Source: Geoglobus ahangari (GTDB lineage Archaea > Halobacteriota > Archaeoglobi > Archaeoglobales > Archaeoglobaceae). From it: 64,000 bases of DNA. Positions 1 through 48,895 of the stretch are shown piece after piece. Under the pieces are notes generated by a model, which searched no databases, was not told the DNA's origin, and was given only the letters and a program-made list of their open reading frames with translations. The stretch is from positions 1,116,001-1,180,000 of the forward strand of contig NZ_CP011267.1 in the NCBI RefSeq assembly GCF_001006045.1. The letters are read 5' to 3'. Numbering within the stretch: position 1 is the stretch's first letter; each line of letters begins with the position of its first letter. A program made the position numbers and the translations under genes.

Positions 1-1
1 G

Positions 2-1771: not shown

Positions 1772-3276
1772 TGTCGAGATCCGGGTGGCTGGGCCTCATT
1801 CCTGTCGGGATGGGGCTCTTCATGGTGCTGCTCGACGTCAGCGTGCTGAACGTAGCTCTGCCCAGCATAGCGAGGGACTTCAACGCGAGGATGTCTGACA
1901 TACAGTGGATACTCAACAGCTACACCCTCACGATGGTCGTTTTGCTGGTTCTCGCTGGCAGAATCGGGGACATGGTCAGGAGGGACAGGTACTTCATGGG
2001 GGCCATGGCCCTGTTCACGGTGAGCAGCTTCCTGTGCGCTCAGGCGTGGAGCACAGGCAGCCTGATCTTCTTCAGAGTGCTTCAGGCTGTTGGAGGGGCC
2101 ATGCTGAGCGGAAACACCCTCGCGATAATCACCGAGCTCTTCCCTCCCGGCAAGAGGGGTGCTGCGATGGGTCTGAACTCCATACTGGTGGCGTCGAGCT
2201 TCACCCTCGGCCCAATAATAGGCGGGTGGCTGACAACCCACCTGAGCTGGCACTGGGTGTTCTACCTGAACGTTCCGGTGGGCATAGTCTCGGTCATTCT
2301 GGCCTACCTGCTTCTCCCACCCCTCGGCGCGAAGGAGAAGGTTCCTGTGGACTTTGCTGGCGCAGTTCTTCTGGCGGTTGCTCTCGGCTCTCTGACGCTC
2401 GGAATCATAAACGGGCAGGACTGGGGTTGGAGGGATGAGAAGACGCTCGGGTGCTTTGCAATCTCGATTCCCTACCTCATCGCATTCGCTCTCAGGGAGC
2501 TCAGCTACGAGTACCCGCTGCTCGACCTCTCGCTGTTCAGGATACGGAACTTCACCGTCGGAATTCTTGCGGTCTCAATCCTCTTCTTCGGCATGTCCTC
2601 CTCGCTATTCGTTTTGCCGTACTTCCTTCAGGGGATAAAGTCCCTGAGCGCCGCAGACTCCGGCTACTGGATGATCGTGCTGCCCCTCGTCAACACCGTG
2701 TTCTCTCCTCTGGCCGGGAGGTTGAGCGATAGGATCAACCCCAAGTATTTGATGTGTGCCGGCCCAGTCCTCTTCACCCTCGGGATGTACAACCTCTCGG
2801 GCATTGAGGAGAACGTGAGCTACTGGGAGTTCTTCGTGAAGCTCATGCCAATGGGGATCGGCATGGGGATGCTGATGTCTCCGTCGTTCAACGTCATAAT
2901 GGCCTCCGTCCCTCCGGAAAAGGCCGGGATGGCAAATGGGACTGTTAGATCTGTGAACACACTCTCGCAGGCAATGGGCGTGACTGTCGGGGGTGTGCTC
3001 CTTACAAACAGGATGAAGGACTGGCTCGGCAACTACGGCAACCAGATCCCGGATCCGGGAACCATGGCCCTGCTCAGGGTTCTCGCTCTAAAGGGCAACC
3101 CCCTTCCGCTGGTCGCGATGGTCGAGAGCTTCATGGACAGCATGCACTACCTCTTCTCAGTGATGATGTGGCTTCCGCTGCTGAGCATGCTAGTCATACT
3201 GCTGTTCCTCAGCGGAGAAGAGCACCTCAGGAGGATGAGGGTGCTGGCAGTAAGAAAAGGGGAGGTTGAGGGGTGA
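1771..3276 (+). CDS. MFS transporter, DHA2 (14-helix) drug:H+ antiporter family
   Basis: A 501-residue polytopic membrane protein. The first helix carries the DHA2 signature (LLDVSVLNVALPSIARDF, residues 21-38), followed by motif A-like 'LAGRIGDMVRRDRYF'. The length and about 14 hydrophobic segments match EmrB/QacA-type exporters. It starts in the stop codon of the upstream surface-protein gene (ATGA overlap), so translation is coupled. COG1361 proteins next to exporters are common in euryarchaea, but the substrate cannot be told from sequence. Confidence 0.88.
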   Translation: MSRSGWLGLIPVGMGLFMVLLDVSVLNVALPSIARDFNARMSDIQWILNSYTLTMVVLLVLAGRIGDMVRRDRYFMGAMALFTVSSFLCAQAWSTGSLIFFRVLQAVGGAMLSGNTLAIITELFPPGKRGAAMGLNSILVASSFTLGPIIGGWLTTHLSWHWVFYLNVPVGIVSVILAYLLLPPLGAKEKVPVDFAGAVLLAVALGSLTLGIINGQDWGWRDEKTLGCFAISIPYLIAFALRELSYEYPLLDLSLFRIRNFTVGILAVSILFFGMSSSLFVLPYFLQGIKSLSAADSGYWMIVLPLVNTVFSPLAGRLSDRINPKYLMCAGPVLFTLGMYNLSGIEENVSYWEFFVKLMPMGIGMGMLMSPSFNVIMASVPPEKAGMANGTVRSVNTLSQAMGVTVGGVLLTNRMKDWLGNYGNQIPDPGTMALLRVLALKGNPLPLVAMVESFMDSMHYLFSVMMWLPLLSMLVILLFLSGEEHLRRMRVLAVRKGEVEG

Positions 3277-3308
3277 TTTAATTATTTGCTTTTCATGCTG
3301 GCTTCAGA

Positions 3309-3716
3309 TTACCCTTTAAGTTGTTTCACTGCGGACTTTATCCGCTCTAAGAATTTTTCAGCATCATCGATAGCTAAAGCTGCCTCTTCTTCGCTTGCAC
3401 GATAGTACAGATCATAATCGGCTTGTTCTCTTCGTCTAAAAGCTTTTGCCAGTGCTGCACCGTAGATTTCCTCCAGATATCCTTTATTAACGAATTCGAG
3501 GCCGAGTGTCACTACAACACCTCTGTGTGTCTTCGGGTTGAGGTTTTTAACGCTTAGAAGGGCCTTTGCTGCATAGTACATTGAGTAGTATGCTTGACTG
3601 ATTGCTGCATTGTACTTTCCACTTTCAAGAAGGATCTTTGACGTCTCAAGAGCATCATATGCTTTTTCCAACAGCTTTTCGGTGTCAGACAAGGACGATG
3701 CCCTCCCTTTCGACAC
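3309..3716 (-). CDS. HEPN domain protein of a HEPN/MNT pair
   Basis: 135 residues, almost entirely one helical HEPN domain (pfam05168-like): 'LLEKAYDALETSKILLE' then 'AISQAYYSMYYAAKALL'. HEPN proteins paired with MNT nucleotidyltransferases are toxins or RNA-binding partners in toxin-antitoxin modules. A canonical R-x4-6-H catalytic motif is not evident: the only nearby His, in NPKTHRG, has no Arg at the right distance. It may therefore be a non-catalytic HEPN. Its start overlaps the end of the MNT gene by 32 bases, which supports co-translation as an operon. Confidence 0.8.
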   Translation of the reverse strand: MSKGRASSLSDTEKLLEKAYDALETSKILLESGKYNAAISQAYYSMYYAAKALLSVKNLNPKTHRGVVVTLGLEFVNKGYLEEIYGAALAKAFRRREQADYDLYYRASEEEAALAIDDAEKFLERIKSAVKQLKG

Positions 3717-4017
3717 TCTTGATAAAGCCTGAGTTTCTGGACTTTAGCATTGAGTAATGCTCTTCACTCATAATGTGTGGTGAAATGAGCTCGCCGTATT
3801 TCAACAGAATGGGGTAGCTAATGCCGATCACATCGTCAAGAGTGAGTGAGCCAATTATCAGCACGTCAATATCGCTTTCACTGTGGATGTCTCCTCTTGC
3901 AACCGATCCGAAAAGTATGACTCGCTTCACTCTCTCGCCATACCTTTTCATGAGTTCTCTGACGAACTCATCTATTGCGGCTCTCTTGGTCTCAGAAAGT
4001 GCAGGCTGGTAGATCAT
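3685..4017 (-). CDS. MNT-type nucleotidyltransferase (antitoxin partner of HEPN)
   Basis: Minimal nucleotidyltransferase of the pol-beta fold. It has the GS-x-ARG motif (GSVARGD) and the two catalytic aspartates in SDIDV that bind Mg-NTP. Members paired with HEPN proteins inactivate the toxin by adding AMP to it. I place the start at ATG 4017 (MIYQPALS, 110 residues). An upstream in-frame ATG at 4062 would lie above or inside the AT-rich promoter-like stretch around 4040-4050, whereas 4017 gives a near-leaderless transcript. Confidence 0.82.
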   Translation of the reverse strand: MIYQPALSETKRAAIDEFVRELMKRYGERVKRVILFGSVARGDIHSESDIDVLIIGSLTLDDVIGISYPILLKYGELISPHIMSEEHYSMLKSRNSGFIKSVEREGIVLV

Positions 4018-4134
4018 TGCACTAAAGATTATGTGAGAACTCAATTTAACACTTTTCCCCACTCCGAGGGGCTTTCTTAGTCTCCTGTCGGAGTGCCGGA
4101 GAGTTTCGGTGGGTAACTGAATTCCGGTTAGTGG

Positions 4135-5313
4135 ATGTTTAGCATGGCAACTGCTATAAAAGATTCTGGAGTACTTCGGTTGATGGGGCTCGGATTTTTC
4201 AGGAGGCGAAAGACGGAGGAACTCACGCTGGAGGAGGCCGAGGCGAGGGTTCTGAGCATTATGAGGTCTGCTGAAGCGGATGTCAATCCCTTCATGCTCG
4301 AGAAGGAAAAGGAGCTGCGTGCTGAAATCAGCAGTCTCATCTCATCCCTTGAGGGGTTTGACGTGAATGCCGTGCATCCGAGACTCAGGGATCAGGCTCG
4401 CAACTTTGTTTCCGCCATGCTGACGCTGTGGAGGGATGAGCTCGGTAAAGATGCGTTCCATGAAGCATCGAGGAGGCTTGAAAAAACCGCGTCCATGAAC
4501 GTCAGGTACTTCAGGATGCTCTTCGCTGTGGGCTCTCCGGAGATCGAGAGGGTGGATGCCCACCTTAGAGCAATCGCCGGCACAATCGCCGATGTGGAGG
4601 GGAAAAGGAGGGAAGCGGGAATTGACGACTTGGAGAACACGCTCAGAATGATTGAGAAAACAAGAGACCTGATTGAAGAGAGGGTGAGAGTAAGCAGGGA
4701 ACTCGCCGAGCTTCTCTCTGAAATTGAGCAAATTGAAGGTGAGGAATCCGGGGATGGAGATGACGAGCGCCTTGCGGCTCTGAAGGCCGAGGTGGAGGCC
4801 GTGGAGCAGGAGGTGGCGAGGAGGGAGGAAGAGGTGCACAGAAAGATCGCCCGCGTAAAAAAGCCCATCAGGCTCTACGCCCACGCTGTGGGCGTGAAGA
4901 TTAGCACTGAAACCCGCTCACTTCTGCTCAGCATGGACGATCTGAAAAACCTCGCCTCTGGTGCGCTTTCCGAGGTGAGGAAGGGAACGATTAAGCTGAA
5001 GGAGAAGAGGCAGGATGTGGTTCTGAAGCTTCTTGAAGAGATTGTGGATGGCAGCCTTGAATCCGAGATTGAGAGGATCGGGCAGCTCAAAAGACGGCTT
5101 GGAGCTTTAAAATCAGAACTCAGAAAGCTCGAGTCGCGGCGCGAGAGACATGACCCGGCTGAAAGGAGGAAAGTGCTTGAGAGGAGGATGGTCTCTCTTC
5201 AGGAGACTGTAAGCCGTCTGGATGGTGAGATCGGGGAGTTAAGAAGAGAGCTTGAAAATGCGCTGTCCGGGCTGATGGGGTTAAAAGTAACGCTGGCAAT
5301 GGATGGTGTTTAG
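4135..5313 (+). CDS. coiled-coil protein of unknown function
   Basis: 392 residues rich in Glu, Arg, Lys and Leu, with long heptad-like stretches from about residue 60 to the end ('ELLSEIEQIEGEE', 'VEAVEQEVARREEEVHRKIA', 'LESRRERHDPAERR'). No signal peptide, membrane segment or catalytic motif is visible. It could be a structural or SMC-like coiled coil without the ATPase heads. The start is uncertain among ATGs at 4135, 4144 and 4183; the last (MGLGFFRRRKTEE) gives the most natural N-terminus. Flanked by toxin-antitoxin modules but in the opposite orientation to the HEPN/MNT pair. Confidence 0.6.
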   Translation: MFSMATAIKDSGVLRLMGLGFFRRRKTEELTLEEAEARVLSIMRSAEADVNPFMLEKEKELRAEISSLISSLEGFDVNAVHPRLRDQARNFVSAMLTLWRDELGKDAFHEASRRLEKTASMNVRYFRMLFAVGSPEIERVDAHLRAIAGTIADVEGKRREAGIDDLENTLRMIEKTRDLIEERVRVSRELAELLSEIEQIEGEESGDGDDERLAALKAEVEAVEQEVARREEEVHRKIARVKKPIRLYAHAVGVKISTETRSLLLSMDDLKNLASGALSEVRKGTIKLKEKRQDVVLKLLEEIVDGSLESEIERIGQLKRRLGALKSELRKLESRRERHDPAERRKVLERRMVSLQETVSRLDGEIGELRRELENALSGLMGLKVTLAMDGV

Positions 5314-5391
5314 TGGGCATCAAAAATAAATTTTTGTGTGGGAACGTAACACATTTATTCTTTCCAGACTATTAACCAATTGGTGATGTAG

Positions 5392-5667
5392 TTGGCAAGA
5401 TCCAAGATAGACAGGTTTGGCAGGATCCTGATTCCGAAGGAGATCAGGAGAAATCTGGGAATTGAGGATGAGGTCGAAGTTGAGGTAGAAGTCAGAGGAG
5501 GAAAGATCTTGATAGCCATTGAAGACCGAGATCTAAAAAAAAGGGTTGAGGAGCTTATTGACCATCTGAAAAACAGGGCTCCAAAGCCCTTTGTTAGTGA
5601 CACGGAGGTTGAAGGGAAGTGGTATTCAGCGGAGTTCAGCATGAGAAAGTTGGGATTGAAGGAGTAG
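5392..5667 (+). CDS. AbrB/SpoVT-fold antitoxin (VapB-like)
   Basis: 91 residues. The N-terminal swapped-hairpin AbrB domain reads 'RSKIDRFGRILIPKEIRRNLGI', with the typical alternation of beta strands and the RILIPKEIR core; the rest is a charged helix that would bind the toxin. The start is TTG at 5392, chosen because an in-frame TAG directly precedes it and a Shine-Dalgarno sequence GGTGAT lies at 5382-5387. Its stop codon overlaps the GTG start of the PIN-domain gene by one base. It probably represses its own operon. Confidence 0.8.
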   Translation: MARSKIDRFGRILIPKEIRRNLGIEDEVEVEVEVRGGKILIAIEDRDLKKRVEELIDHLKNRAPKPFVSDTEVEGKWYSAEFSMRKLGLKE

Positions 5668-6119
5668 TGGATGTTGGCCTGATTGTGATTTCACATTTTG
5701 AAAATCCAGCAAAGAACCACGCTCTTGAATTCTTAAAAAGCGTCCTTCTATGGGAAAGGAAATGTCTGATTCCTGTGACGGCATTTCTTGGAGCATATCA
5801 CGTGCTCACCAACTATCTTGGGGTTGAGAGAATTTCTGCATACGAGGCTTTAAGGAAGACTCTCGAGACAAGATCTCCGGCACTCTACTCTGATCTGAGT
5901 GTTGACACTGCTGTAGAGTCCTTGGCAAATGCGATGGGGTATAGAATCGAGTCTTGGGATGGTTATTTGGTCGCAATAGCAAAGGCACACTCTGCCCCTG
6001 TGATTTACACGATTGACAGGAAAATGGGGAAAAAGGTCAGGGACATACATGTTGTCAATCCCATCCCTGATGATGTGTTCAGGGAATACAACAGGTGGTT
6101 GGAGGAGAACATCGGTTAG
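5667..6119 (+). CDS. PIN-domain toxin (VapC-like RNase)
   Basis: 150 residues from GTG 5667 (VDVGLIVISHF). That start has GGAG at 5661-5664 and overlaps the antitoxin stop, so the longer upstream reading is not used. The PIN acidic residues are recognisable: the N-terminal Asp in VDVGLIVI, Asp in SWDGYLVAIAKAH, and Asp in YTIDRKMGKK. These bind Mg/Mn for RNA cleavage. With the preceding AbrB protein it forms a VapBC-type module. Confidence 0.8.
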   Translation: MDVGLIVISHFENPAKNHALEFLKSVLLWERKCLIPVTAFLGAYHVLTNYLGVERISAYEALRKTLETRSPALYSDLSVDTAVESLANAMGYRIESWDGYLVAIAKAHSAPVIYTIDRKMGKKVRDIHVVNPIPDDVFREYNRWLEENIG

Positions 6120-6228
6120 TGCTGTGTTCCGGCCTTTTCTGCAAAACACATTCTCCTTCCTTGTCGTCCCTTGGTCTGCACCTTTGGGATAACTTTTTAA
6201 TCTAACTTATGTTGGTAATGAAAAATTA

Positions 6229-6256
6229 CGAAAGATTTAAATCACGTTAACGTTAA
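6229..6256 (+). promoter_or_regulatory. BRE/TATA promoter and palindromic operator candidate
   Basis: CGAAAGATTTAAAT (6229-6242) is a BRE plus TATA box. About 25 bases downstream, transcription would begin near 6263, just before GGTGA (6266-6270) and the ATG at 6275. The perfect palindrome ACGTTAACGT (6245-6254) lies between the TATA box and the predicted start site, where a bound repressor would block initiation of the acyl-CoA cluster. Confidence 0.5.
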
Positions 6257-6274
6257 TTTTTTCACGGTGAAACC

Positions 6275-7420
6275 ATGACCAGAGTTGCTGTTGTCGGTGT
6301 GGGTTATAGTGGTTTCAACACCAACACGCCCGACCTCAGCTGGAAGGAGCTGATGTACGAGGCGGCTGTCAGGGCTTACGAGGATGCAGGAATCAACCCG
6401 AGGAGAGACGTGGACAGCTTCGTAACGTGTGCGGAGGACTTCTGGGAGGGCTTTGCCATCTTTGACGAGTTCGTCCCCGACCAGCTCGGGGCAGTGCTTA
6501 AGCCCACCCTGACCGTGACCGCGGACTTCCTCTACGGCATAGCCACGGCGTTCATGCACATCAAGAGCGGCCTTGCCGAGATTGCTGTTGTGGAAGCGCA
6601 CAGCAAGGCCAGCGACATACTGACGTTCGGAAACGTGATGAAGTTCGCCTTCGATCCGGTGTGGCTCAGGCCAATTGGCAAGGCACACCCGTACTACTTC
6701 GCAGCCCTTGAGAAGTCCTACTACTCCAGCCTCAGGGGCTACTGCGACGACGTGTACGCTGAGGTCGTGGAGAAGAACAAGAGGAACGGCAGGCTCAACC
6801 CCGACGCACCGTATTCGGGCAACGTTACCGCCGAGGATGTGCTCAGCAGCGAGGCGTCATTCTACCCGCTCAGGAAGCTCGAGATTGCTGAGAGGGCTGA
6901 TGGGGCTGTTGTGTTCGTGCTCGCGAGTGATGAGGTCGCGAGGCAGCTGACAGACACGCCTGTGTGGGTTGACGGCATAGGCTGGTGGAGCGAGACGAGC
7001 AACTACGACACCATGAGCTTCACAGCAGAGTATGCAAGGAAGGCTGCCGAGATGGCCTACGACATGGCCGGAATTGAGTATCCGGCGAAGCAGGTGGACA
7101 TTGCCGAGGTGGACGACAGGTTCGCGTTCAAGGAGGTTCAGCACATCGAAGCCCTCAAGCTTGCAAAGCCGGGTGAGGTTGACAGGCTGCTCAGCGAGGG
7201 CTACTTCAGCAGGGATGGAGCTCTGCCCGTGAACGTCTCCGGAGGAAACCTCAGCGTCGGAAACCTGCTCGAGGCCACGGGTGGACAGAAGGCCCTCGAG
7301 ATCGTCCTTCAGCTGAGAGGAGAGGCTGGGAAGAGGCAGGTCGACGCTGAGATGGGTGTTGCTCAGGCGTGGAGGTACGTTCCGACCGCAAGCGGTGCCG
7401 TTGCGGTCTTCTCGAGGTGA
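6275..7420 (+). CDS. thiolase-fold protein without thiolase catalytic residues (Ltp2-like subunit 1)
   Basis: 381 residues with a SCP2/thiolase fold: 'RVAVVGVGYSGF' at the N-terminus, 'HIKSGLAEIAVVEAHSKASD' around residues 95-113, and a C-terminal 'SGGNLSVGNLLEATGG'. The three thiolase active-site residues are missing. The nucleophile loop reads TLTVTADFLYG with no Cys, the HD-F motif reads EVDDRF (D280/D281), and GHPxGATG reads GNLLEATG (N330). The next gene is a paralogue with similar losses and DUF35 genes follow. Thiolase-fold/DUF35 pairs that lost the Cys (Ltp2-ChsH2 of steroid side-chain degradation) are acyl-CoA retro-aldolases, so an aldolase or structural role is inferred. Leading gene of the cluster. 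Confidence 0.72.
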   Translation: MTRVAVVGVGYSGFNTNTPDLSWKELMYEAAVRAYEDAGINPRRDVDSFVTCAEDFWEGFAIFDEFVPDQLGAVLKPTLTVTADFLYGIATAFMHIKSGLAEIAVVEAHSKASDILTFGNVMKFAFDPVWLRPIGKAHPYYFAALEKSYYSSLRGYCDDVYAEVVEKNKRNGRLNPDAPYSGNVTAEDVLSSEASFYPLRKLEIAERADGAVVFVLASDEVARQLTDTPVWVDGIGWWSETSNYDTMSFTAEYARKAAEMAYDMAGIEYPAKQVDIAEVDDRFAFKEVQHIEALKLAKPGEVDRLLSEGYFSRDGALPVNVSGGNLSVGNLLEATGGQKALEIVLQLRGEAGKRQVDAEMGVAQAWRYVPTASGAVAVFSR

Positions 7421-7426
7421 TAAGCT

Positions 7427-8626
7427 ATGTTCGAGAGGATTAAGGGTTTGAAGTTCCACAAGAAGCAGGACGTTGCCATCGTCGGTGCGGGAATCACTCT
7501 CTTCAGGAGAAGGATGAACGAGACCGGGAAGGAGCTGAGCTACTACGCTGTAAAGCAGGCCCTTGAGGAGGCTGGACTTGAGATCTCGGACATAGACATG
7601 GTCGTGATGGGCTCCGCCCCAGACTCTTTCGACGGAATCCACATGAAGGGTGAGTACCTGCTTGACGGCAGCGGAGGTAGCAACAGGCCGTACATGAGGG
7701 TCTTTGTCGGTGGAGGAACCGGAGTCTTCGCGCCGATAGCAGGATACTGGCACGTCGCAAGCGGGCTTGCGGACGTCTGCCTCGTCATAACCGAGGAGAA
7801 GATGAGCTCGGTGCACCCCCATCCCCAGTCAGCCTTCAAGTACATCTGGGATCCCATTCTTGACAGGCCGCTCAACCCCAACCTGATATGGATCTTTGCC
7901 CTCGAGATGAGGAGGTACATGCACGAGAACAACATAAAGCACGAGGACATCGCCCTCGTTTCTGTGAAGAACAAGGGCAACGCCCTCGATCATCCAGCAG
8001 CTCAGGTTGCTGAGAAGATAACGGTCGAGGATGTGCTCAGCAGCGAGCCGATGGCTCTGCCTGTAAGAAGGCTGGACGTCTCCCCGCCGAGTGATGGAGC
8101 TTCAGCGCTGATAATGGTCGCCCCGCATATAGCGAGGCAGCTCACCGATGAGCCTGTCTGGGTTGATGGAGTTGGCTGGGCACTCGACACGACCTGGTGG
8201 ACGAACAGAGACCTGTACTTCCCGAGGTATGTTGCCGAAGCGGCAAAAATGGCCTACAAGATGGCCCACATAACCGATCCGAGGAAGGAGATTGATGTTG
8301 CCGAGCCATACGACCCGTTCGATTACAAGGAGCTTCACCACATGGAGGGTCTGGGTCTGGCGAAGAAGGGAGAGGCGCCGATACTGACGAGAGAGGGAGT
8401 TACAGCGAGGGACGGAGACCTGCCGGTCTGCCCGAGCGGTGGACTGCTTGGCGTTGGCAACCCGATTGCTGCAACAATGGGTGTCAAGGTCGCTGAGATC
8501 TACTGGCAGCTGGCTTACAGGGCAGGAAAGAGGCAGGTCGCCAAGGAAGTGACGACGGGTGTTGCTCAGGCCTGGGGTGACCTGATGCAGGTTGGAACCG
8601 TTATGGTTCTCTCCAACAAGAGGTGA
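7427..8626 (+). CDS. thiolase-fold protein, probable retro-aldolase (Ltp2-like subunit 2)
   Basis: 399 residues, paralogue of the preceding gene (both share 'EDVLSSE' and 'ARQLTD.PVWVDG.GW'). The Cys of the CASG nucleophile loop is replaced (VFVGGGTGVF, residues 92-101). The catalytic His of HD-F is Tyr (EPYDPF, Y295-D296) and GHPxGATG is GNPIAATM (N345). A Tyr-Asp pair at this position is what I recall for Ltp2-type aldolases, where tyrosines act in carbon-carbon cleavage of a beta-hydroxyacyl-CoA. It lies 6 bases after the first paralogue, and the ATG of the DUF35 gene follows its stop within a few bases, so a multi-subunit complex is likely. It could also be a thiolase of unknown mechanism. 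Confidence 0.72.
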   Translation: MFERIKGLKFHKKQDVAIVGAGITLFRRRMNETGKELSYYAVKQALEEAGLEISDIDMVVMGSAPDSFDGIHMKGEYLLDGSGGSNRPYMRVFVGGGTGVFAPIAGYWHVASGLADVCLVITEEKMSSVHPHPQSAFKYIWDPILDRPLNPNLIWIFALEMRRYMHENNIKHEDIALVSVKNKGNALDHPAAQVAEKITVEDVLSSEPMALPVRRLDVSPPSDGASALIMVAPHIARQLTDEPVWVDGVGWALDTTWWTNRDLYFPRYVAEAAKMAYKMAHITDPRKEIDVAEPYDPFDYKELHHMEGLGLAKKGEAPILTREGVTARDGDLPVCPSGGLLGVGNPIAATMGVKVAEIYWQLAYRAGKRQVAKEVTTGVAQAWGDLMQVGTVMVLSNKR

Positions 8627-8631
8627 TTGTG

Positions 8632-9162
8632 ATGGCGGTTGGGAAGAAGAACATCTCAGCTCCTCTGTATGTCGAGGGGCACGGGATTGAGGCCGAGGAT
8701 CTGAAGGAAGGGAAGGTCACGTACGTTGAGGATCACCCTGACATAAGGTATCAGTTCACCGCCGGACAGGCCATCAGCAAGTTCCTCAACGGCCTCAAGG
8801 AGGGCAAGATTCTCGCAACGAAGTGCAACAAGTGCAGGAGGGTGATGGTGCCTCCAAGGATGTTCTGCGAGCTCTGCTACAGGCCAATCGACGAGTGGGT
8901 GGAGCTTGAAGACACTGGCACGGTCGAGACGTTCTCGATCTCCTACATCGACCCTGATGCAAGACCGCTTGACGAGCCAGAGATTGTGGCTGTGATCTCC
9001 ATAGACGGAGCCTCACCGAAGATGGGCATTCTGCACAAGCTTGGCGAGGTGGAGCCGGACAAGGTGTACATTGGAATGAAGGTGAAGGCAGTCTGGAAGC
9101 TGCCCGAGGAGAGGGAGGGCATGATAACCGACATCCTCTACTGGAAGCCAATAGAGGGGTGA
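8632..9162 (+). CDS. DUF35 zinc-ribbon/OB-fold protein, partner of thiolase-fold subunit
   Basis: 176 residues. An N-terminal extension is followed by a rubredoxin-like zinc ribbon with C65-x2-C68 and C79-x2-C82 (ATKCNKCRRV, MFCELCYR). A C-terminal OB fold ends in 'GMITDILYWKPIEG'. DUF35 proteins bridge thiolase and HMG-CoA synthase in archaea, form BbsA in benzoylsuccinyl-CoA thiolase, and complete the active site in Ltp2-type aldolases. Start ATG 8632 follows AGGTGAT (8621-8627), which overlaps the stop of the thiolase-fold gene. Upstream in-frame GTG at 8623 is inside that ribosome-binding site. Confidence 0.82.
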   Translation: MAVGKKNISAPLYVEGHGIEAEDLKEGKVTYVEDHPDIRYQFTAGQAISKFLNGLKEGKILATKCNKCRRVMVPPRMFCELCYRPIDEWVELEDTGTVETFSISYIDPDARPLDEPEIVAVISIDGASPKMGILHKLGEVEPDKVYIGMKVKAVWKLPEEREGMITDILYWKPIEG

Positions 9163-9167
9163 TGGTG

Positions 9168-9641
9168 ATGGTGTTCAACGAGAAGATTGTGGATCCTGCC
9201 GAGCTCAGGCACGTTGAGGGCAAGATCGAGCTCTACTGGGTTTACACGAGCGGAGAGGCTGGAGATGCATTCTTCAAGAAGCTCAAGGATGAGGGCAAGT
9301 TTATTGCTGCAAGGTGCAAGAAGTGCGGTCACGTCTACTTCCCTCCGAGGATATACTGCGAGTTCGACTTCGGCGAGACCGAGTTCGTGGAGGTAAGCGG
9401 TAAGGGCTGCGTTAAGGCCTTTGCGGTGGCAAACTACGACACATACGAGAAGAAGCTCGAGAAGCCGGAGATCTACGCGATCATAGAGATGGACGGCACG
9501 GATGGATCAATAGTCCACCTCCTCGGCGAGGTTGAGCCCGAGGACGTTGAGATTGGTATGAAGGTCGAGCCGGTGCTCAAGCCGAAGGAGGAGAGGGAGG
9601 GCAGGATAACGGACATCCTCTACTTCAAGCCCGTTTCCTAA
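9168..9641 (+). CDS. second DUF35 OB-fold protein with a degenerate zinc ribbon
   Basis: 157 residues from ATG 9168 (MVFNEKIV); ATG 9162 is an alternative. GGGGTGAT at 9156-9163 serves as the ribosome-binding site. Same layout as the preceding gene, but the zinc ribbon has C50-x2-C53 (ARCKKCGHV) and only C64 of the second pair: CEFD replaces CxxC, with Asp67 as a possible fourth ligand. The OB fold ends 'GRITDILYFKPVS'. Two different DUF35 proteins matching two different thiolase-fold proteins suggest matched pairs. A run of Ts follows the stop (9643-9650) and may end the first transcript. Confidence 0.8.
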   Translation: MVFNEKIVDPAELRHVEGKIELYWVYTSGEAGDAFFKKLKDEGKFIAARCKKCGHVYFPPRIYCEFDFGETEFVEVSGKGCVKAFAVANYDTYEKKLEKPEIYAIIEMDGTDGSIVHLLGEVEPEDVEIGMKVEPVLKPKEEREGRITDILYFKPVS

Positions 9642-9687
9642 TTTTTTTGCTCAGGTTTTTTAATTATTAAAAATGGGGGTGGTGAAT

Positions 9688-10872
9688 GTGGATTTTAAGC
9701 TTACGGAAGAGCAGAGGATGATTGCAGACGCAGCAAAGGACATAGCGAAGGACTTCCCTCCAGAGTACTGGAGGGAGAAGGACGAGAAGGGTGAGTTTGC
9801 CGAGGAGTTCTGGAAGGCCATAAGCAAGGCCGGCTTCCTCGGCATAGTGATCCCTGAGGAGTATGGCGGAGCGGGAATGGGCGTTACCGAGCTCCTCATA
9901 GCAATGGAGGAGCTTGCAGCCAACGGATGCGGAATGGGTGGTGTGTGGTACCTCGTTCTGACAGAGGTATTCGGTGCCCTGAGCATAGTGAGGCATGGAA
10001 CTGAGGAGCAGAAGGAGAAGTACCTGCCGAAGATCGCCAAGGGTGAGCTCGAGTTCGCGATGGCCCTTACAGAGCCAGATGCGGGCACGAACACGCTCAA
10101 CATAAGGACGAGGGCGGTGAAGGATGGAGACGAGTGGGTGATAAACGGAAACAAGATCTTCATAAGCGGTGCGGACAGGGCAAAGGGGATGCTGATAATC
10201 GCAAGGACGACTCCGAAGGAGGAGGCTCCAAAGAAGACGTACGGAATCAGTCTCTTCCTTGCAGACCTTCCAAACCCGGCCGTGAAGGTGAACCCGATAC
10301 CAAAGCACGGCATAAACTACTCCAAGACCTGTGAGGTGAGCTTCAACAACCTCAGGCTGCCTGAGGATGCTCTCATGCCACCGCAGGACGAGGGCTGGTA
10401 CATGATCCTCGACACCCTCAACCCGGAGAGGATGAGCTTCGCCGCAGCGGCAATAGGCATCTCGAGGCTGGCGATAAGCAAGGCTGTTGAGTACTCCAAG
10501 CAGAGGAAGGTCTTCAGCGACCCGATTGGCAGCTACCAGGGTCTGCAGTTCCCTATTGCTGAGGCGTACGCGACCCTTGAGTGTGCGAAGCTGATGAACC
10601 TGAAGGCCGCATGGCTCTTCGACAACAACGCCAGCTACAAGGAGATTGGTGAGGCTGCGAACATGGCGAAGGTCGTTGCGGTAGAGGCTGGAATAAAGGC
10701 GGTCTACTGGGCGATGCAGACATTCGGCGGTTATGGCTACACGAGGGAGTACGACGTTGAGAGGTGGTGGAGGGAGATCAACCTGATAAGGCTCGCTCCC
10801 GTGACACAGCAGATGGCCCTCAACTACATCGGCGAGCATGTTCTGGGAATGCCCAAGAGCTACAGGAGCTGA
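9688..10872 (+). CDS. acyl-CoA dehydrogenase
   Basis: FAD flavoprotein of about 394 residues (MDFKLTEEQRMIADAAKDIA start). It has the usual order: N-terminal helices, a middle beta domain ('ALTEPDAGTNTLNI', 'WVINGNKIFISGA'), and a C-terminal helix bundle ending 'FGGYGYTREYDVERWWREI'. The MCAD-type catalytic Glu loop (YEGT) is replaced by APVT. A Glu sits at the isovaleryl-CoA/long-chain dehydrogenase position in LNPERMSFAA and is the likely base. GTG 9688 is preferred over ATG 9673: the TATA-like TTTAATTAT at about 9657-9665 is too close to 9673, and MDFKLTEEQ is the family's usual beginning. It resembles BbsG-like enzymes in context. Confidence 0.85.
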   Translation: MDFKLTEEQRMIADAAKDIAKDFPPEYWREKDEKGEFAEEFWKAISKAGFLGIVIPEEYGGAGMGVTELLIAMEELAANGCGMGGVWYLVLTEVFGALSIVRHGTEEQKEKYLPKIAKGELEFAMALTEPDAGTNTLNIRTRAVKDGDEWVINGNKIFISGADRAKGMLIIARTTPKEEAPKKTYGISLFLADLPNPAVKVNPIPKHGINYSKTCEVSFNNLRLPEDALMPPQDEGWYMILDTLNPERMSFAAAAIGISRLAISKAVEYSKQRKVFSDPIGSYQGLQFPIAEAYATLECAKLMNLKAAWLFDNNASYKEIGEAANMAKVVAVEAGIKAVYWAMQTFGGYGYTREYDVERWWREINLIRLAPVTQQMALNYIGEHVLGMPKSYRS

Positions 10873-29701: not shown

Positions 29702-30095
29702 TGAACTCCTTGAAAGGGCTTACAGCATGCTCCCCGAGAAGGTCATCAGCAGGGAGAGGTTCGAAATCCCCAGGGTGAGCGTTCAGAAGGAGGGTAGCAG
29801 GACGATAGTGAAGAACTTTGGGGTGATAGCCAAGACGATAAACAGGAGTGAGGAGCACCTCTACAAGTACCTCGTGAGATCTCTGGGCACAGCGGGTGTT
29901 GTTGAGTCGGGCAGGCTCATACTTCAGGGCAAGTTCACGGACAAGGAGATTCAGAAGGAGATAGACGACTACGTGAAGACCTACGTGCTCTGCAGGGAGT
30001 GTGGGGCTCCAGATACAGAGTTCGTCAGGGAGGAGAGGGTTCTCTTCGTGAAGTGCCTCGCGTGCGGTGCCAAGCACTCCGTAAAGGGTCTATGA
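29688..30095 (+). CDS. translation initiation factor aIF2, beta subunit
   Basis: 135 residues. The N-terminal helix (DELLERAYSMLPEK) binds the gamma subunit. The central domain has 'IVKNFGVIAKTINRSEEHLYKYL', and the C-terminal zinc ribbon has CRECG and CLACG. It is part of the heterotrimer that brings initiator Met-tRNA to the ribosome. It overlaps both neighbours by a few bases and lies in a translation/RNA-modification operon. Confidence 0.95.
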   Translation: MKSYDELLERAYSMLPEKVISRERFEIPRVSVQKEGSRTIVKNFGVIAKTINRSEEHLYKYLVRSLGTAGVVESGRLILQGKFTDKEIQKEIDDYVKTYVLCRECGAPDTEFVREERVLFVKCLACGAKHSVKGL

Positions 30096-33552: not shown

Positions 33553-33597
33553 TGCCCGGAGCCGGATTTGAACCGGCGACTATGCGGTCTTCAGCCG
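33553..33597. repeat. left attachment core (tRNA-Phe 3'-half remnant)
   Basis: 45 bp identical to 48822-48866, starting TGCCCGGAGCC and ending TCTTCAGCCG. It covers the discriminator through the anticodon arm of tRNA-Phe. The sequence beyond (TAGGGCAATA) does not continue the tRNA, so this copy is not a functional gene. Confidence 0.9.
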
Positions 33598-34565
33598 TAG
33601 GGCAATATACGAGCTCCATTAATGAAATAGAGTTGAATAATGCCTCCAATAGGCATATAGAGGTGGCAAATGGTGGCAAATTGCACCAAAGATATAACAG
33701 CTACAATGAAGGAATAAAGTTTGAGGATATTGATTACGAGGATTTTGAGCTTTTCTGGACGGCAGAGAGGAAAATGAAAACCAAAAAGGAGAGAGTTAAG
33801 AGATTATACAATGTTCTCAAGAAGGTTCTGGCTGGAAAGGTGATCAATGAGGAATCGCTGAGGGAGGGATTCCACAAAACAACAAACAAAAAGGATTACG
33901 TGAATGCTGTAAGGGTTCTGCTGGAGTATCTGAAGGTGAGGAAGCTAATGCCAAGGGAGATGGTTCAGGAGATCCTTGAACAACCATTCTTAACACCAAT
34001 AAGATCAAAGAGGAGAGGGATTTACCTGAAGGATGAGGAGATCAGGCAGGCTTATGAGTGGTTAAAGGAGAAGTGGAAGGATAAAGATACGGAACTATTG
34101 TTCAAACTGCTTGTATTCTCAGGGATAAGGCTTGATCATGCTCTAGATCTGCTGTATAACTTTGATCCAAGGAAGCTTGAGTTTAAGGGGAGAGTTGCAA
34201 GGTATCCATTAACCGATATTAGCAATGAGATCAAATCTGGAGAGTATGCATTCATGCCGGCAGAGTTTGCAAGGAAGCTGAGGAAGATCAAAAAGAAGCT
34301 CGATTACCAAACATGGGAGAACAGGATCAACGTTAAGAGATGGAGAGGAGATGAGAAATACAAAAAGAGCAGGGTTGATGCGAATGCCATCAGGAAATGG
34401 TTTGGGAACTTTTGCTTAGGCCATGATGTTTCTGAATCTGCAACGGAATACTTCATGGGGCATGCGATAAAGGGAATGGGAGGAAAGGCTTACTTTGATC
34501 TCAGGGATAAGCTGAGCTGGAGGGAATATGAGAAGATTGTTGATAAATTCCCAATTCCTTTCTAA
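33598..34565 (+). pseudogene. integrase, C-terminal catalytic part (intC)
   Basis: Tyrosine recombinase fragment of about 322 codons that begins inside the left att core; the open frame extends upstream into chromosomal flank but those residues are not native. Catalytic residues are recognisable: Arg in FSGIRLDHALDLL, Lys/Arg-containing 'VDANAIRKWFGNF', His in MGHAIKGMGG, and the nucleophile Tyr in KAYFDL. Joined to intN (48593-48866) across the repeat it gives 1242 nt, in frame, 413 residues. In the integrated state the gene is inactive; after excision it is restored. Good evidence for an SSV-type integrase. Confidence 0.88.
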
Positions 34566-36342: not shown

Positions 36343-36432
36343 ATGCTCAGGTGGGTTAGGAGGTTAGTGAGGGCCTTGCTTGGGTTGAAAATCAGAGGAG
36401 GTGGTGGAGCTGGCACACCACTACTCGTTTAG
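36343..36432 (+). CDS. possible 29-residue leaderless basic peptide
   Basis: ATG 36343 lies about 25 bases after the TATA box, so the transcript would start at the codon. The product (MLRWVRRLVRALLGLKIRGG...) is basic and amphipathic, and the frame overlaps the beginning of the following gene. AGGAGG inside it can serve as ribosome-binding site for that gene. It may be a leader or coupling peptide. Weak evidence, based on position only. Confidence 0.3.
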   Translation: MLRWVRRLVRALLGLKIRGGGGAGTPLLV

Positions 36433-36913
36433 AGTTGGCAACATGAAGCTGATCTATGCGATTGAGGATTTCAAGAGCAAGGGTGGAAATCTCTCAAAGC
36501 TTGTTGTAACTCTGCTTGAGCAGTACTTCTTCGGAGATCTTGATATCAAAACAGCATCCAAGGATCTTGTTGAGTTGAGAAAGATCAAGAATGGATTGGA
36601 GGAGTGGATCAGAAAGGGCAAGGAGTATTTCTCAAAAGTTATTGAGCTTGAAGATCGCATGCTCAAAAAGGTTGAGGAAGAAGCAGCTGAACAGGAGAAG
36701 GAGCTTGTTGATGATCTGAAGAATCTGTTCAGCGAGGTAATAAACGAGGGAGTTGAATCCTTCATCAACACCGCCCAGAAAATTGGAAGAGAACCCAAGG
36801 ATCTCATCTACGTGAGGCTGAACGATTGGGCAATCAGGAACAACATCAGTATTGTTGAAGCTGAAAGATTACTCTTGAAGGCAATACCTGAATTTGAATC
36901 AATTCTCCGCTGA
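36401..36913 (+). CDS. helical protein of unknown function, element-encoded
   Basis: 170 residues (GTG 36401 or 36404, or ATG 36443 beginning MKLIYAIEDFKS). It is mainly helical with a Glu/Lys-rich coiled coil from about residue 60 to 115 ('VIELEDRMLKKVEEEAAEQEKEL'). The N-terminal part ('GGNLSKLVVTLLEQYF') could be a ribbon-helix-helix-like segment. No match I can name; a plasmid copy-control or partition protein is possible by position next to the repeat region. Confidence 0.55.
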   Translation: MVELAHHYSFRVGNMKLIYAIEDFKSKGGNLSKLVVTLLEQYFFGDLDIKTASKDLVELRKIKNGLEEWIRKGKEYFSKVIELEDRMLKKVEEEAAEQEKELVDDLKNLFSEVINEGVESFINTAQKIGREPKDLIYVRLNDWAIRNNISIVEAERLLLKAIPEFESILR

Positions 36914-36995
36914 ACTTTTTTGCACATTTCTTCCAATTTTTTGTGTGTGCTTTTCACGAAAATGTATCCTGTTCCTTGTTGTGGGATTTGGTTCT

Positions 36996-42655: not shown

Positions 42656-43955
42656 ACTACCTTAACCCTCCTCTTCCCGGTCAGCAAATCATTCATCAAA
42701 CCCTTCTTAATCCTCTCAAGCTTTTCCCTGCGTTTCCTTTCGAGTTCGAGTTTTTTATCCACAGTTGAAAGAATTTCGGCGATTTTTTTGCTGTTCTGGG
42801 AGCGGTGGTAGAGGCAACAAAATTTGTTTGAGTATTTTGATAGACGCAAGGTTTACTTGGGTAGCACCATATGTAAATTTTCTGAGTTGCCTTTCAAGCA
42901 ATCCACTTTCGAACAAGTATTTGAAAAACAGAATGTTAATTTTATTGCCATTCAACCTTATTCTAATCAACGCCTGATTGAATATCCCCCTTTGAATTCC
43001 TTCGGGTACAATTGCTATTTTGCCTATAGTGCCTGCAGAAGTCATTAAAATGTCGCCTGGTTTTATTTCATAATTCTTTAGTTCATCGAATTTCTCGTCA
43101 TTAATATAGTAATCTCCAACAGTAAAATCATTCAGTATGACGTTCTTCTGTTCATACACCTTATATCCACTTTCTACAAAAAACTCTTTTTTAATCATGC
43201 TCCCCCAAGGCCCTCGTTTAATCCCATCTTCTGGCATAACAATATTTTCTACTTTGACAACCCCCCACTCCTTCGGAATTTTCCCAATCTCCGTATCCTT
43301 GAACTCAGTATGCCCAATCCCCTTCGTCAGAAGCTCATGCATCAACCCTTTCTTCAGCCTTTCAGTTTTCGCTATCGCCTCATCCGCCTTCTCTATGACC
43401 CTATCAACCGTGCTTAGAATTTCGGCGAGCGATTTTGCGCTGTTCTGGGAGGGGTGGGAGGGGGATTCTAATTCGCTTCAATTCCGTTTGATTTATTGAA
43501 GCCTGATTTACAGCTTTTTTCGCTATATTTTTGAATATTCCTCTTAATCGGTATATTTTAAGTAGGTAAAGCAAAAAACGAGGTTTAATCTCCTCTTTGT
43601 TTGGCCTTAAAAGCAAGAGATTCATCCCATGCAACAATATTTCTGGTACAGCTTCATAAATTGCTGTTTTTCCGATATGTTCAAGGCTATTAATGTGGCT
43701 GAACAAAATATCGCCAACAATTAGCTGATATTCTTTTAATTCTCCTTCTTTGAGGTTATTCACAAAACCAACTTTACTTGGATCAATTTTCTCATCTGAG
43801 ATCGTCTCTATTCTCGTAATGGGATACCCATTTCCTTCTTTGTTTTGCCGATAAGTTAAACCATTCCTAATTAGCGTTAAAACGTCTCCAAGCCTTACAA
43901 CCTCCCAATCCTCTGGAATTCTGCCGATTGGTGTTTCTTTGAATCCTGTTGTCAA
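42652..43955 (-). pseudogene. hsdS: type I specificity subunit with two frameshifts
   Basis: Two target-recognition domains and two conserved helical spacers are present but lie in three frames. TRD1 starts 'FKETPIGRIPEDWEVVRLGDV' and ends LPPLPEQRKIA. There the tandem TCGC-TCGC (43430s) puts the spacer ('ILSTVDRVIEKADEAIAKTERL') in another frame. TRD2 ends LPPLPEQQK, where an A7 tract (about 42786-42792) again shifts the frame to 'IAEILSTVDKKLELERKRREKL'. Removing four bases and one base respectively gives a 432-residue HsdS. Both lesions are at the same conserved point of the two half-repeats. Confidence 0.85.
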
Positions 43956-45579: not shown

Positions 45580-46215
45580 TCACATTGGAGTTTGATCACT
45601 ATATAGGGGTACGTCTAATAATGAGATGCCTGCAGGTTTGTTTTTGGCATAATGTTTAACAATTCTTTGAGTATCACCATCTAAATAATCCCACAAATCA
45701 AGCTTTTCCAGAGTATATGAGACTAATTGAAAAAATAGCCAATGAAATCGATAATCCCAGCGGTAGTAGAATGGAAAATGGAGAAATTCATTCCGCAATT
45801 TAGTAAATAGATCCAGTATCTCTTGAATTTCACAAAGTTTGATTTTGTTATCCTCTTTTTCAGAGAGTATCTTTTTAAACTCGTTTTTTATGCTTCCCAA
45901 TGTTCTTCTTGATTTTTCACGTGAAAGGATTATATTGGGACCCTCGAAAAAACAAACTATTTTTACGAACCCCTCAAAAAGAACCGATAACAACAAGATG
46001 CTGTGGATGTCATCAGGAACTACAATTGTGCCCAACGAATCAACATAACGGCGCAATAAAATACCCCACTGCGTAAAAAATGATGAAACCAATTCTTCTC
46101 TACCATTCTCTTTACTCAAAAGTTCCTTTATCTTTGTTTCGCCGTGTTCATCCATAAAACTTCTTATTTCTTCTACACTCTTTTTCAACTTAGAGCAATC
46201 ACTCATTTTTATCAC
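45580..46215 (-). CDS. HEPN-motif protein in the hsd locus
   Basis: 211 residues, helical. 'LFTKLRNEFLHFPFYYRW' (about residues 136-153) contains R-N-x3-H, the HEPN ribonuclease motif (R-x4-6-H). It overlaps the end of hsdM by four bases, so it is co-translated with the modification subunit. HEPN RNases in restriction loci often act as a back-up toxin or abortive-infection effector. Family not recognised beyond the motif. Confidence 0.58.
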   Translation of the reverse strand: MIKMSDCSKLKKSVEEIRSFMDEHGETKIKELLSKENGREELVSSFFTQWGILLRRYVDSLGTIVVPDDIHSILLLSVLFEGFVKIVCFFEGPNIILSREKSRRTLGSIKNEFKKILSEKEDNKIKLCEIQEILDLFTKLRNEFLHFPFYYRWDYRFHWLFFQLVSYTLEKLDLWDYLDGDTQRIVKHYAKNKPAGISLLDVPLYSDQTPM

Positions 46216-47731
46216 TTATAGCCCAGTTCAGAAAGATAATTGCCAATTCTCTCTTCAATCTCTTCGATCTCTTTCTCAATAGTCTTTAACTCCACCCACT
46301 CCTTCGCAACATCAATCTCCTCAATCTCCTCCTGTGGAAACACGTAAAGCGTAACGTTCAGGTTGTAGTCGTTCTCCCTAATTTCATCTAAACTAACAAC
46401 CCTGCAAAAACCATCTCCATCCCTGAACTCATTGTAAGTATTCACAATTTTCTCTATATGCTGTTCTCCAAGCCTGTTCAGCTCTCTAACCTCTGGATGC
46501 TTCTCGAATTCGTTGGATGCGTTTATGAACAGAATTTTGCCCTTTCTATCCTCTGGCTTCTGTTTGTTGAAGATTATAATCGCTCCCGGAGCGCCAGTGT
46601 TGTAGAAGAGCTTTTCTGGCAGTAAAATTACGCATTCAATCAGATCATCCTCGATTATAGCCTTTCTGATCTGCTTCTCCTTTCCACCTCTGAAAAGGCA
46701 TCCGTTATCTATTACAACGCCAACTTTCCTCTTTGCCGAGGCAAGCATGTGCTGAATCCATGCCCAATCAGCAGATTGCTTTGATGTAAAACCATACTTG
46801 AAACGTTCATCGTAGAATTCTGCCTTCTTTAATTCTTCCTCTCCATATCCATCCTGATTCCATGGAGGGTTGGCTATGACAATATCAAACTTCCTGAACG
46901 TTTCTCCTTCCTTGAATCTCGGATTCTTCAGCGTATCTCCAACTTCGAGTTTGATATCCTTTATTCCGTGAACTATTGCGTTCATCTTCGCTATTGCGTA
47001 AGTTGTTGGATTAACTTCCTGCCCGTAAAGGAAGAGCTTCTTTGCCTCTTCCTCGCCATACTTCCGCTTAACATAATCGTATGCCCTGATAAGCATCCTC
47101 GCATAGCCCGCTGCAGGATCATAAATGCTATCCATTGGTTTCGGATCAACAATCCTGACGATCAGATCCACTACCTCGGAGGGCGTGAAAACTTCACCTT
47201 CCTTGGCTTTCTGTGGTGCGAAATAGCCAATCAACCATTCATAAGCATCACCGAGGATGCTATCACTCGCTCTTCCAAGATTAGCCCGCTGAAAAGCTCA
47301 AAAAGCTGAACAAGAATGTCAAAATTATCTCTGTGCCTCGTAAACTCAAGAAAATCAAGCCTATCAACTACTCCCTGCAATTCGGGATTTTTCTCAGCAA
47401 GAAGTTTCAACGCCTCAGAAAGTCTTACAGGCAGCTCGTTAATGTTCTTTCTCAACTCTTCCCATGTGTATCTCTCAGGATATTCAAACCTGTGGAAGGA
47501 TCTATCCTTTGCAAAGTTTTCAGCCTCTTCTTTGCTTAACCCCTTCTCAAGCAGAGTTTTCAGAGCTTCGTTGTATTCTCTTTTCCACTCATCACTGAGC
47601 CTTTTCAGAAAAAGGAGAACGAGAATGTATTTGTAATCAACCCTCGTTCTTATCAGATCAGCTGCCTGCTTGCATGCTCTTATCAGCTCATCTCTTGTGG
47701 TTTCAATCTCAATGTAATCAGCAAGAGTCAT
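46212..47731 (-). pseudogene. hsdM: type I modification subunit, frameshifted
   Basis: From ATG 47731 (MTLADYIEIETTRDELIRAC) the N-terminal HsdM helical domain runs to 'FELFSGL'. There, near 47283, one base is missing and the frame continues as 'NLGRASDSILGDAYEWLIGYF'. The downstream frame has the N6-adenine methylase motifs: FTPSEVVDLI, 'SIYDPAAGYARMLI' (motif I), and NPPW (motif IV, IVIANPPWNQ). One added base gives a 506-residue HsdM. The C-terminus overlaps the HEPN gene. Motif I (DPAAGYA) and NPPW look functional otherwise. Confidence 0.88.
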
Positions 47732-47787
47732 TACAATAAATGAATTCAGCCTGCATATTTTATTTTTCTGGAAAGTGTTTGATCGCT

Positions 47788-47997
47788 GTTGATCCCATGT
47801 TGATCTGCTCAATCAACGTTGATTCAATGTTGATTGATTGCTGATCAACCACATTGATTTTGCTAATCAACATGTTGATTGAATGTTGATTCGCTAATCA
47901 ACAGCTGTTGATTGATCAGTTGATCCTGCTGATTTGAGAATCAACATGGTGTTGATATTGTTGATTGATTGCTGATCAACAGTTGATTGTGGTTGAT
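47788..47997. repeat. dense array of GTTGAT / ATCAAC motifs
   Basis: Within 210 bp I count twelve GTTGAT and six reverse complements ATCAAC, many extended to (A/C)TGTTGATTG and paired as palindromes (AATCAACATGTTGATT). It is non-coding and lies upstream of hsdM and downstream of the RHH gene. Iteron-like arrays of this kind bind a replication or partition protein, or an array of regulators. The stretch 47732-48062 holds no gene. Confidence 0.7.
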
Positions 47998-48062: not shown

Positions 48063-48233
48063 TCATTTTCTTGTGTGTGCATCCGCCACTTGTGAGAGGT
48101 AGAGCTTTATTGCCTTGGATAATTCCTCACCGAGATACTTCCAGAGACAGCCGTATTTGGATAAAACGTAATTCTTGAAAGCCAGCCATTCATCTTCATT
48201 CACGTGAACGCTGATTTTTACTGGTTTATCCAT
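48063..48233 (-). CDS. small RHH-like regulatory protein
   Basis: 56 residues from ATG 48233 (MDKPVKISVHVNEDEW). GGAGAGGTGATCC sits directly upstream, an almost perfect ribosome-binding site that fixes the start. The first strand (VKISVHVNEDEWLAFKNYVLSK) suits a ribbon-helix-helix fold. A candidate repressor for the repeat region on either side. Confidence 0.6.
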   Translation of the reverse strand: MDKPVKISVHVNEDEWLAFKNYVLSKYGCLWKYLGEELSKAIKLYLSQVADAHTRK

Positions 48234-48592
48234 TGGATCACCTCTCCAGAAATCGCATAAAACCGTGAAAAATGCAGAATTCTTCCATTTTGCATGAAAT
48301 TTATGCACCTTTCTTCCATGGAAGAAACCTTTCTTCCTTTCTTCCATTCTGCATAAAATGGATGAATGTTGGAATGAAATTCATGCACCTTTCTTCCAAA
48401 GTGCATGAAAAGAAGCCCTCTCCTGCCTTCTTTTGTGATCACTTGATACTCTTTCGTGGAGGGTGCACACACATGAATTTGTGCATGCAAAAATTTCGTG
48501 AATCATGGTTGTAATCTTTCCTGTGTGCAATCTGAATAAATTTAGTTTTTGCTACAAAAAATTTATATATCTGTTATGCTATATTTATCACT
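48234..48592. promoter_or_regulatory. repeat-rich divergent region between RHH gene and intN
   Basis: A 25-bp direct repeat with one mismatch (48294-48318 and 48374-48398; ends ATGCACCTTTCTTCCA) plus three further TTCTTCC copies and GCATGAAATTTATGC-type near-palindromes. A TATA box (TTTATATAT) at about 48558-48567 precedes intN, and transcription would start close to its ATG. No gene seen. Likely operators for the RHH protein and integrase. Confidence 0.5.
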
Positions 48593-48866
48593 ATGACGTC
48601 CATGGACGTTCATGAACGTCCAGATAGAATAAACTCCGAGAAAAGCCCGGATTTTGAGAAAAAAGGAAGGAGAAAGCTCAGAATGACAATCTGGTTTTCT
48701 AAGGAGAACTATATATTTCTGAAAGAAAACTATGGAGGTAGGATTTCTGAGATAATGGATGCCTTTGCAACCTTTTTGAGAACAGGAAACGTTCTAGAGA
48801 TTTCAGTTTTGAGAATTGGAATGCCCGGAGCCGGATTTGAACCGGCGACTATGCGGTCTTCAGCCG
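48593..48866 (+). pseudogene. integrase, N-terminal part (intN)
   Basis: From ATG 48593 the first about 75 residues form a strand-helix-helix region ('RKLRMTIWFSKENYIFLKENYGG', 'ISEIMDAFATFLRTG'). The frame then enters the att core as 'MPGAGFEPATMRSSA' and runs on antisense through the tRNA to a stop at 48904. The first 274 nt plus intC (33598-34565) make an in-frame 413-residue integrase in the excised circle. Its promoter stays with intN, so an N-terminal fragment might still be expressed. Confidence 0.85.
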
Positions 48867-48895
48867 CACGCTCTCCCAAGCTGAGCTACCCGGGC
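48822..48895 (-). tRNA. tRNA-Phe (GAA)
   Basis: 74 nt. Acceptor stem GCCCGGG/TCCGGGC, D arm TAGCTCAGC, anticodon loop CTGAAGA with GAA at 48861-48859, T arm GCCGGTTCAAATCCGGC, discriminator A at 48822; CCA not encoded. The 3' half (48822-48866) is the attachment core, so the present 3' half was supplied by the integrated element while the 5' half is original. Confidence 0.95.

Follow-up and report, generated by a model that had tools for sequence, protein, structure and literature searches.

A helically phased GTTGAT array in tRNA-integrating Archaeoglobaceae elements as a candidate maintenance locus for an RHH-type protein

The closest described systems are plasmid loci. On pSM19035, the parS sites of the parS/omega (ParB-pSM) system are many short, non-palindromic sequences in direct and inverted orientation that lie near maintenance genes and are bound by RHH dimers of omega. 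They are arranged as 7 to 10 contiguous 7-bp repeats of the heptad WATCACW that overlap promoters, together with a ParA (delta) (PMC9499535). The stbDRs of the R388 StbA/stbDRs system are 9-bp direct repeats spaced by 2 bp, approximately one helical turn, that precede stbA at the stb promoter, and R388 stability is independent of the ParA-like StbB (PMC3098194). PrpA, the RHH antitoxin of a toxin-antitoxin pair, acts on hexamer iterons (GTGTAG, TTTGTA) and controls plasmid replication in competition with the known RepB (PMC7848731). Archaeal plasmids of the pT26-2 family integrate into tRNA genes, and their repeat-rich intergenic regions are read as origins that lack a common consensus and are hard to recognize; the Thermococcales members of the family have split integrases (PMC6972569). 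Replication and segregation of integrating elements in Archaeoglobales appear to be largely unstudied, and a literature search found no published description of an array and RHH protein system like the one analyzed here. The locus lies in a 64,000-nucleotide stretch of the chromosome of the heat-loving archaeon Geoglobus ahangari (NZ_CP011267.1, positions 1,116,001 to 1,180,000), the whole of which is referred to as the window.

The window array and its host element

The hexamer array occupies positions 47788 to 47997 and consists of 12 copies of GTTGAT on the plus strand (starting at 47788, 47799, 47818, 47829, 47874, 47885, 47907, 47919, 47951, 47960, 47982 and 47992) and six copies of ATCAAC (47812, 47844, 47866, 47897, 47940 and 47975). 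An exact recount reproduced the 18 motifs in 210 bp of the original prediction, and its claim that the array exceeds chance holds against an expectation of approximately 0.14 copies, calculated simply from base composition (36% GC). Elsewhere in the window, no hexamer exceeds 7 copies per 210 bp, and the window as a whole contains 64 motif copies compared with 31.8 ± 5.6 in shuffled sequences. The genome-wide density check suggested at the outset found equal density nowhere else. Tandem GTTGAT-N3-8-GTTGAT pairs occur nine times in the 1,770,093-bp genome, six in the array and three in isolation, and this search detected no second GTTGAT array anywhere in G. ahangari. Neighboring copies in the same orientation are separated by steps of 9 to 12 bp or 22 bp, and the unit ATCAAC-N0-5-GTTGAT-N3-6-GTTGAT occurs five times. 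Palindromes are present in the array as proposed, for example the perfect 12-bp palindrome ATCAACGTTGAT at 47812 to 47823.

The array is located, as first described, in a stretch without genes between the start of hsdM (47731) and the end of a small gene (48063), both on the minus strand. The 36% GC of the array compares with 39.7% for the element overall, other parts of the element are at least as AT-rich, and no marked AT-rich unwinding segment was found. Reading the array as an RNA element was dropped because tRNAs are the sole Rfam matches at the gathering cut-off between positions 30000 and 52000. A sigma-70 promoter and terminator scan returned chance-level results only.

The array-bearing, virus-like element is 15.3 kb long (33.6 to 48.9 kb of the window), is integrated in tRNA-Phe (48822 to 48895, minus strand) and has a GC content of ~40% versus 52.5% outside. 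The N-terminal part of a split SSV-type integrase, int(N) (48593 to 48866, plus strand), extends into tRNA-Phe, and the catalytic part, int(C) (33553 to 34565, plus strand), matches PF16795 with E = 7.5e-29. A 45-bp att sequence is directly repeated at the distal element end (33553 to 33597) and inside tRNA-Phe (48822 to 48866). Genes of "suicidal" integrases of the SSV type are divided in this way, into int(N) and int(C), on integration (PMC8371274), and the split gene, tRNA target and direct att repeats identify the window element as integrated by such an enzyme. By eye, int(N) itself shows a strand-helix-helix pattern like that of RHH proteins. Two more int(N) genes are present in the same genome (L272 and L273; G. 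ahangari C1, ~1.30 and 1.38 Mb), and neither region has an RHH-family gene or an array. A pleomorphic provirus has also been reported in G. ahangari (PMC10919331).

The hsdM gene (46212 to 47731, minus strand) belongs to a Type I restriction-modification operon and is divided into two overlapping frames, one matching N6_Mtase (46212 to 47234) and one matching HsdM_N (47231 to 47731). Two separate hsdS-type ORFs are found at 42755 to 43345 and 43404 to 43955. With a split hsdM and two hsdS-type ORFs, this restriction-modification system may not be active. The element also carries PIN-domain genes and one gene each of the EVE-domain, YgjP-like and transglutaminase-like types. Neither a ParA-type ATPase, as in omega/parS systems, nor a recognized replication (Rep) protein was found in the window element. 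A second, unrelated repeat cluster composed of TTTCTTCCA and TGCATGAA/TGCACC copies (48277 to 48410) lies upstream of the RHH gene and is possibly the operator of that gene. A copy related to these repeats is located at 36906 to 36935, and the Archaeoglobaceae locus L033 has a TGCACA-rich cluster at the equivalent position.

Recurrence of the array and linkage to an RHH-like family

GTTGAT arrays were mapped at 12 loci, the window and 11 others in Archaeoglobaceae. The searches covered 59 genomes of the class and 394 genomes of the phylum, in which all matches outside Archaeoglobaceae were single hits in coding sequence or perfect tandem microsatellites and were not counted as arrays. Viral contigs were also scanned for the pattern, and the matches with at least 7 motifs in 300 bp were set aside as mostly microsatellite-like or repetitive. 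Two arrays, those of G007 and G004:C33, have nearly the same sequence and are therefore not independent. L035 is almost identical to L034 and was left out of the spacing tally. In the 11 arrays tallied, the spacing of same-orientation neighbors peaks at 9 to 12 bp, with a second group at 20 to 23 bp. The copies recur with a period of ~10.3 to 11.0 bp, and all five arrays given a random-placement test showed helical phasing (P ≤ 0.001 for each). At this spacing the copies lie on one face of the helix, as side-by-side protein binding requires. The sequence retrieved around the array includes a tRNA gene for the window and for nine of the 11 other arrays. The cargo beside the arrays differs and includes Type I RM, Type III RM and Hma systems. 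In L054 (1824 to 9630), HmaA- and HmaB-like genes of the Hma defense system adjoin the GTTGAT array near tRNA-Phe.

The small gene upstream of the window array (48063 to 48233, minus strand) encodes a 56-residue RHH-like protein, the candidate array binder. This protein is a truncated member of a family of ~220-residue proteins that is present in 14 of the 59 genomes of the class. In full-length members, the RHH-like N-terminal part is followed by a winged-helix part, and the C-terminal part is helical. The winged-helix part is predicted with pLDDT values in the 80s and has Foldseek neighbors of the MarR/SarA type (E = 7e-3 or worse). The predicted monomer of the 56-residue protein (pLDDT 70) contains helices at residues 13 to 27 and 36 to 53 without a strand, and the N-terminal part of the family returned Foldseek matches of E = 2 or worse, with RHH folds among many of these weak matches. 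The sequence pattern and the weak structural neighbors suggest, but do not prove, an N-terminal RHH fold. No library yields a significant fold assignment for the family, with Foldseek E values of at least 2 and nothing in Pfam or PHROG, and sequence searches with the 56-residue protein likewise found nothing in Pfam, PHROG or PDB. A sequence search of solved structures with the family gave nothing useful, and the plasmid and phage collections contain no relatives of the full-length protein. An IMG/VR contig (L119, positions 1 to 10379) encodes a full-length family member and, by eye, proteins resembling those of a tailed virus (terminase, portal, capsid); the array is absent from this stretch.

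A family member adjoins the array or lies within ~2.7 kb of it at nine of the 12 GTTGAT loci. Two binding partners had been put forward in the original prediction, and this linkage retains the 56-residue protein. The other candidate, a 170-residue protein at 36401, has no convincing relative at any other array locus and no family match above cut-off, and it was rejected as the binder because it is not conserved with the array. The tenth array, L055, has a different RHH-like gene, recognized by eye, 0.3 kb away. The family copy at L034 contains an in-frame stop, no RHH-family gene was found near the L054 and L056 arrays, and no array was detected at several RHH-family loci. In the related element at L041, 11 ATCCGA/TCGGAT copies form an array that is preceded by two family members, and the order int(N), RHH, array and defense genes matches that of the window. 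When 30 int(N) loci were surveyed for 1.5 kb on each side, the sole array was at the locus with the RHH family, and none of the 29 int(N) loci without the family nearby had one. The integrase alone was therefore rejected as the array partner, the one int(N) locus in 30 with an array being the RHH-bearing one.

A proposed maintenance function and its alternatives

From these sequence relationships, we infer that the array is, on balance, probably a cis-acting maintenance locus of tRNA-integrating Archaeoglobaceae elements that is bound by an RHH-type protein and acts in replication or partition as an origin or centromere-like site. Several RHH-type proteins, as dimers encoded adjacent to the array or nearby, would line up on the phased hexamers along one DNA face, and the resulting nucleoprotein complex would serve the free circular form of the element. 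The complex could be an iteron-type origin and copy-control site or a partition (centromere-like) site that functions without ParA, with origin and copy control slightly ahead. The multiple phased, intergenic repeats of the window have the organization of an iteron origin. L055 is a complete 22.8-kb element with a UvrD-type helicase and a primase-large-subunit-like protein, and array-bearing elements can therefore bring their own replication genes. The RHH and winged-helix relatives could be a Rep initiator. For the window and L033 elements, the detrended GC-skew minimum falls ~90 bp away from the array and coincides with a gene-strand switch; in L055 it falls ~1.1 kb away. Skew was not accepted as proof of an origin because it is confounded by gene orientation and is 1.1 kb off in L055. 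The window locus itself may be a leftover: the integrated element appears eroded, its hsdM is broken, its RHH protein is short, neither ParA nor a replication protein is recognized, and the array may be out of use.

A multi-site operator was the original alternative to an origin or centromere. An RHH protein on the array would then set the expression of the adjacent defense operon, which is hsdM in the window. The array begins 57 bp upstream of the hsdM start, hsdM is transcribed away from it, and an AT-rich TATA-like stretch recognized by eye, AAAAATAAAATATG (47754 to 47767, minus strand), lies between the two and adjoins the array, which has the position of an upstream activating region. The neighboring defense gene is directed away from the array at seven of the eight defense-carrying loci: Type I RM in the window, L033, L034, L035 and L055, Hma in L054 and Type III RM in L041. 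Arrays are not always upstream of genes they might regulate, however. At L036 the array lies between convergent genes, with hsdR and the RHH gene both pointing at it, at L056 the array stands alone next to tRNA-Val with no adjoining element gene, and at L037, L040, L043 and L057 much of the array is inside coding sequence. These six loci mean that not all arrays are operators of a defense operon. In addition, 18 sites over 210 bp exceed the need of a simple switch, and regulation of the defense genes is an unlikely explanation for the array. The four loci with in-gene arrays form a second element family with a kinase, a zinc-ribbon protein, a HerA/terminase-like ATPase and a possible head protein, and the in-gene part of the array encodes Val-Asp and Ser-Thr codons in a linker.

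A conserved host protein, such as a replication initiator, nucleoid protein or silencing protein, might bind the array in place of the element RHH protein. Elements whose RHH proteins differ widely have the identical hexamer, as do L054 and L056, where no RHH-family gene is nearby, and both observations favor a host binder. This explanation is nevertheless improbable: the G. ahangari chromosome has no second GTTGAT array, the other two integrase regions of the genome have none, and at L041 the hexamer array linked to the RHH family is not GTTGAT but ATCCGA.

Even more doubtful is a role in integration or excision, with the integrase or an excision factor using the copies as accessory (arm-type) sites. 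Six arrays (window, L033, L035, L036, L054 and L056) are within ~2.3 kb of the tRNA attachment site, and the RHH-like pattern of int(N) fits this role. The arrays of L040, L043 and L055 are ~7 kb from the attachment site, however, the int(N) survey found an array only beside the RHH family, and in vitro recombination by the integrases of pT26-2 and pTN3 needs no cofactors (PMC8371274). Functionless neutral repeat expansion has the least to recommend it. In its favor, insertions and deletions occur in both array pairs compared, and slippage can lengthen repeats. Against it, the copies have two orientations and variable spacers and are helix-phased instead of tandem, one hexamer recurs across different element families, and G026 has changes at 5 of 78 shared motif positions versus 11 of 81 spacer positions, a weak difference.

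Comparison with known systems

The proposed maintenance locus has, like pSM19035 parS/omega, numerous short, non-palindromic sites that occur both as direct and as inverted copies near maintenance genes, and WATCACW resembles ATCAAC (PMC9499535). The array also lies near the gene of a candidate binder, as in omega/parS, and this neighbor would be the protein that binds it. In contrast to the contiguous, promoter-overlapping heptads of pSM19035, the sites described here are ~10 to 11 bp apart and downstream of the RHH gene, and no ParA is recognized. Repeats at ~11 bp, approximately one helical turn, are shared with the stbDRs of R388, whose sequence motif is unlike GTTGAT (PMC3098194). No StbA homologue with repeats upstream was found, in that the candidate binder has no Pfam match and the array is downstream of its gene. 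PrpA provides an example of an RHH protein that acts on hexamers to control replication, as is proposed here, but no counterpart of its competitor RepB is recognized in this element (PMC7848731). The pT26-2 family resembles the Archaeoglobaceae elements in tRNA integration and repeat-rich intergenic regions, although its origins have no common consensus whereas GTTGAT is common to the elements described here (PMC6972569).

It is possible, and is put forward tentatively, that these loci represent an undescribed archaeal system in which an RHH (or RHH and winged-helix) family without known relatives acts on a phased hexamer array as an origin or centromere, without ParA or a classical Rep. The host elements would carry interchangeable anti-virus systems, and the system would recognize two or more motifs, among them GTTGAT and ATCCGA. 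The common motif and one linked protein family provide a candidate origin or centromere, a candidate binder and a signature by which such elements, defense carriers among them, can be searched for. RHH-bound arrays are already known; the new features are the protein family without a library match, the apparently ParA-less archaeal arrangement, the motif common to different elements and the second motif specificity.
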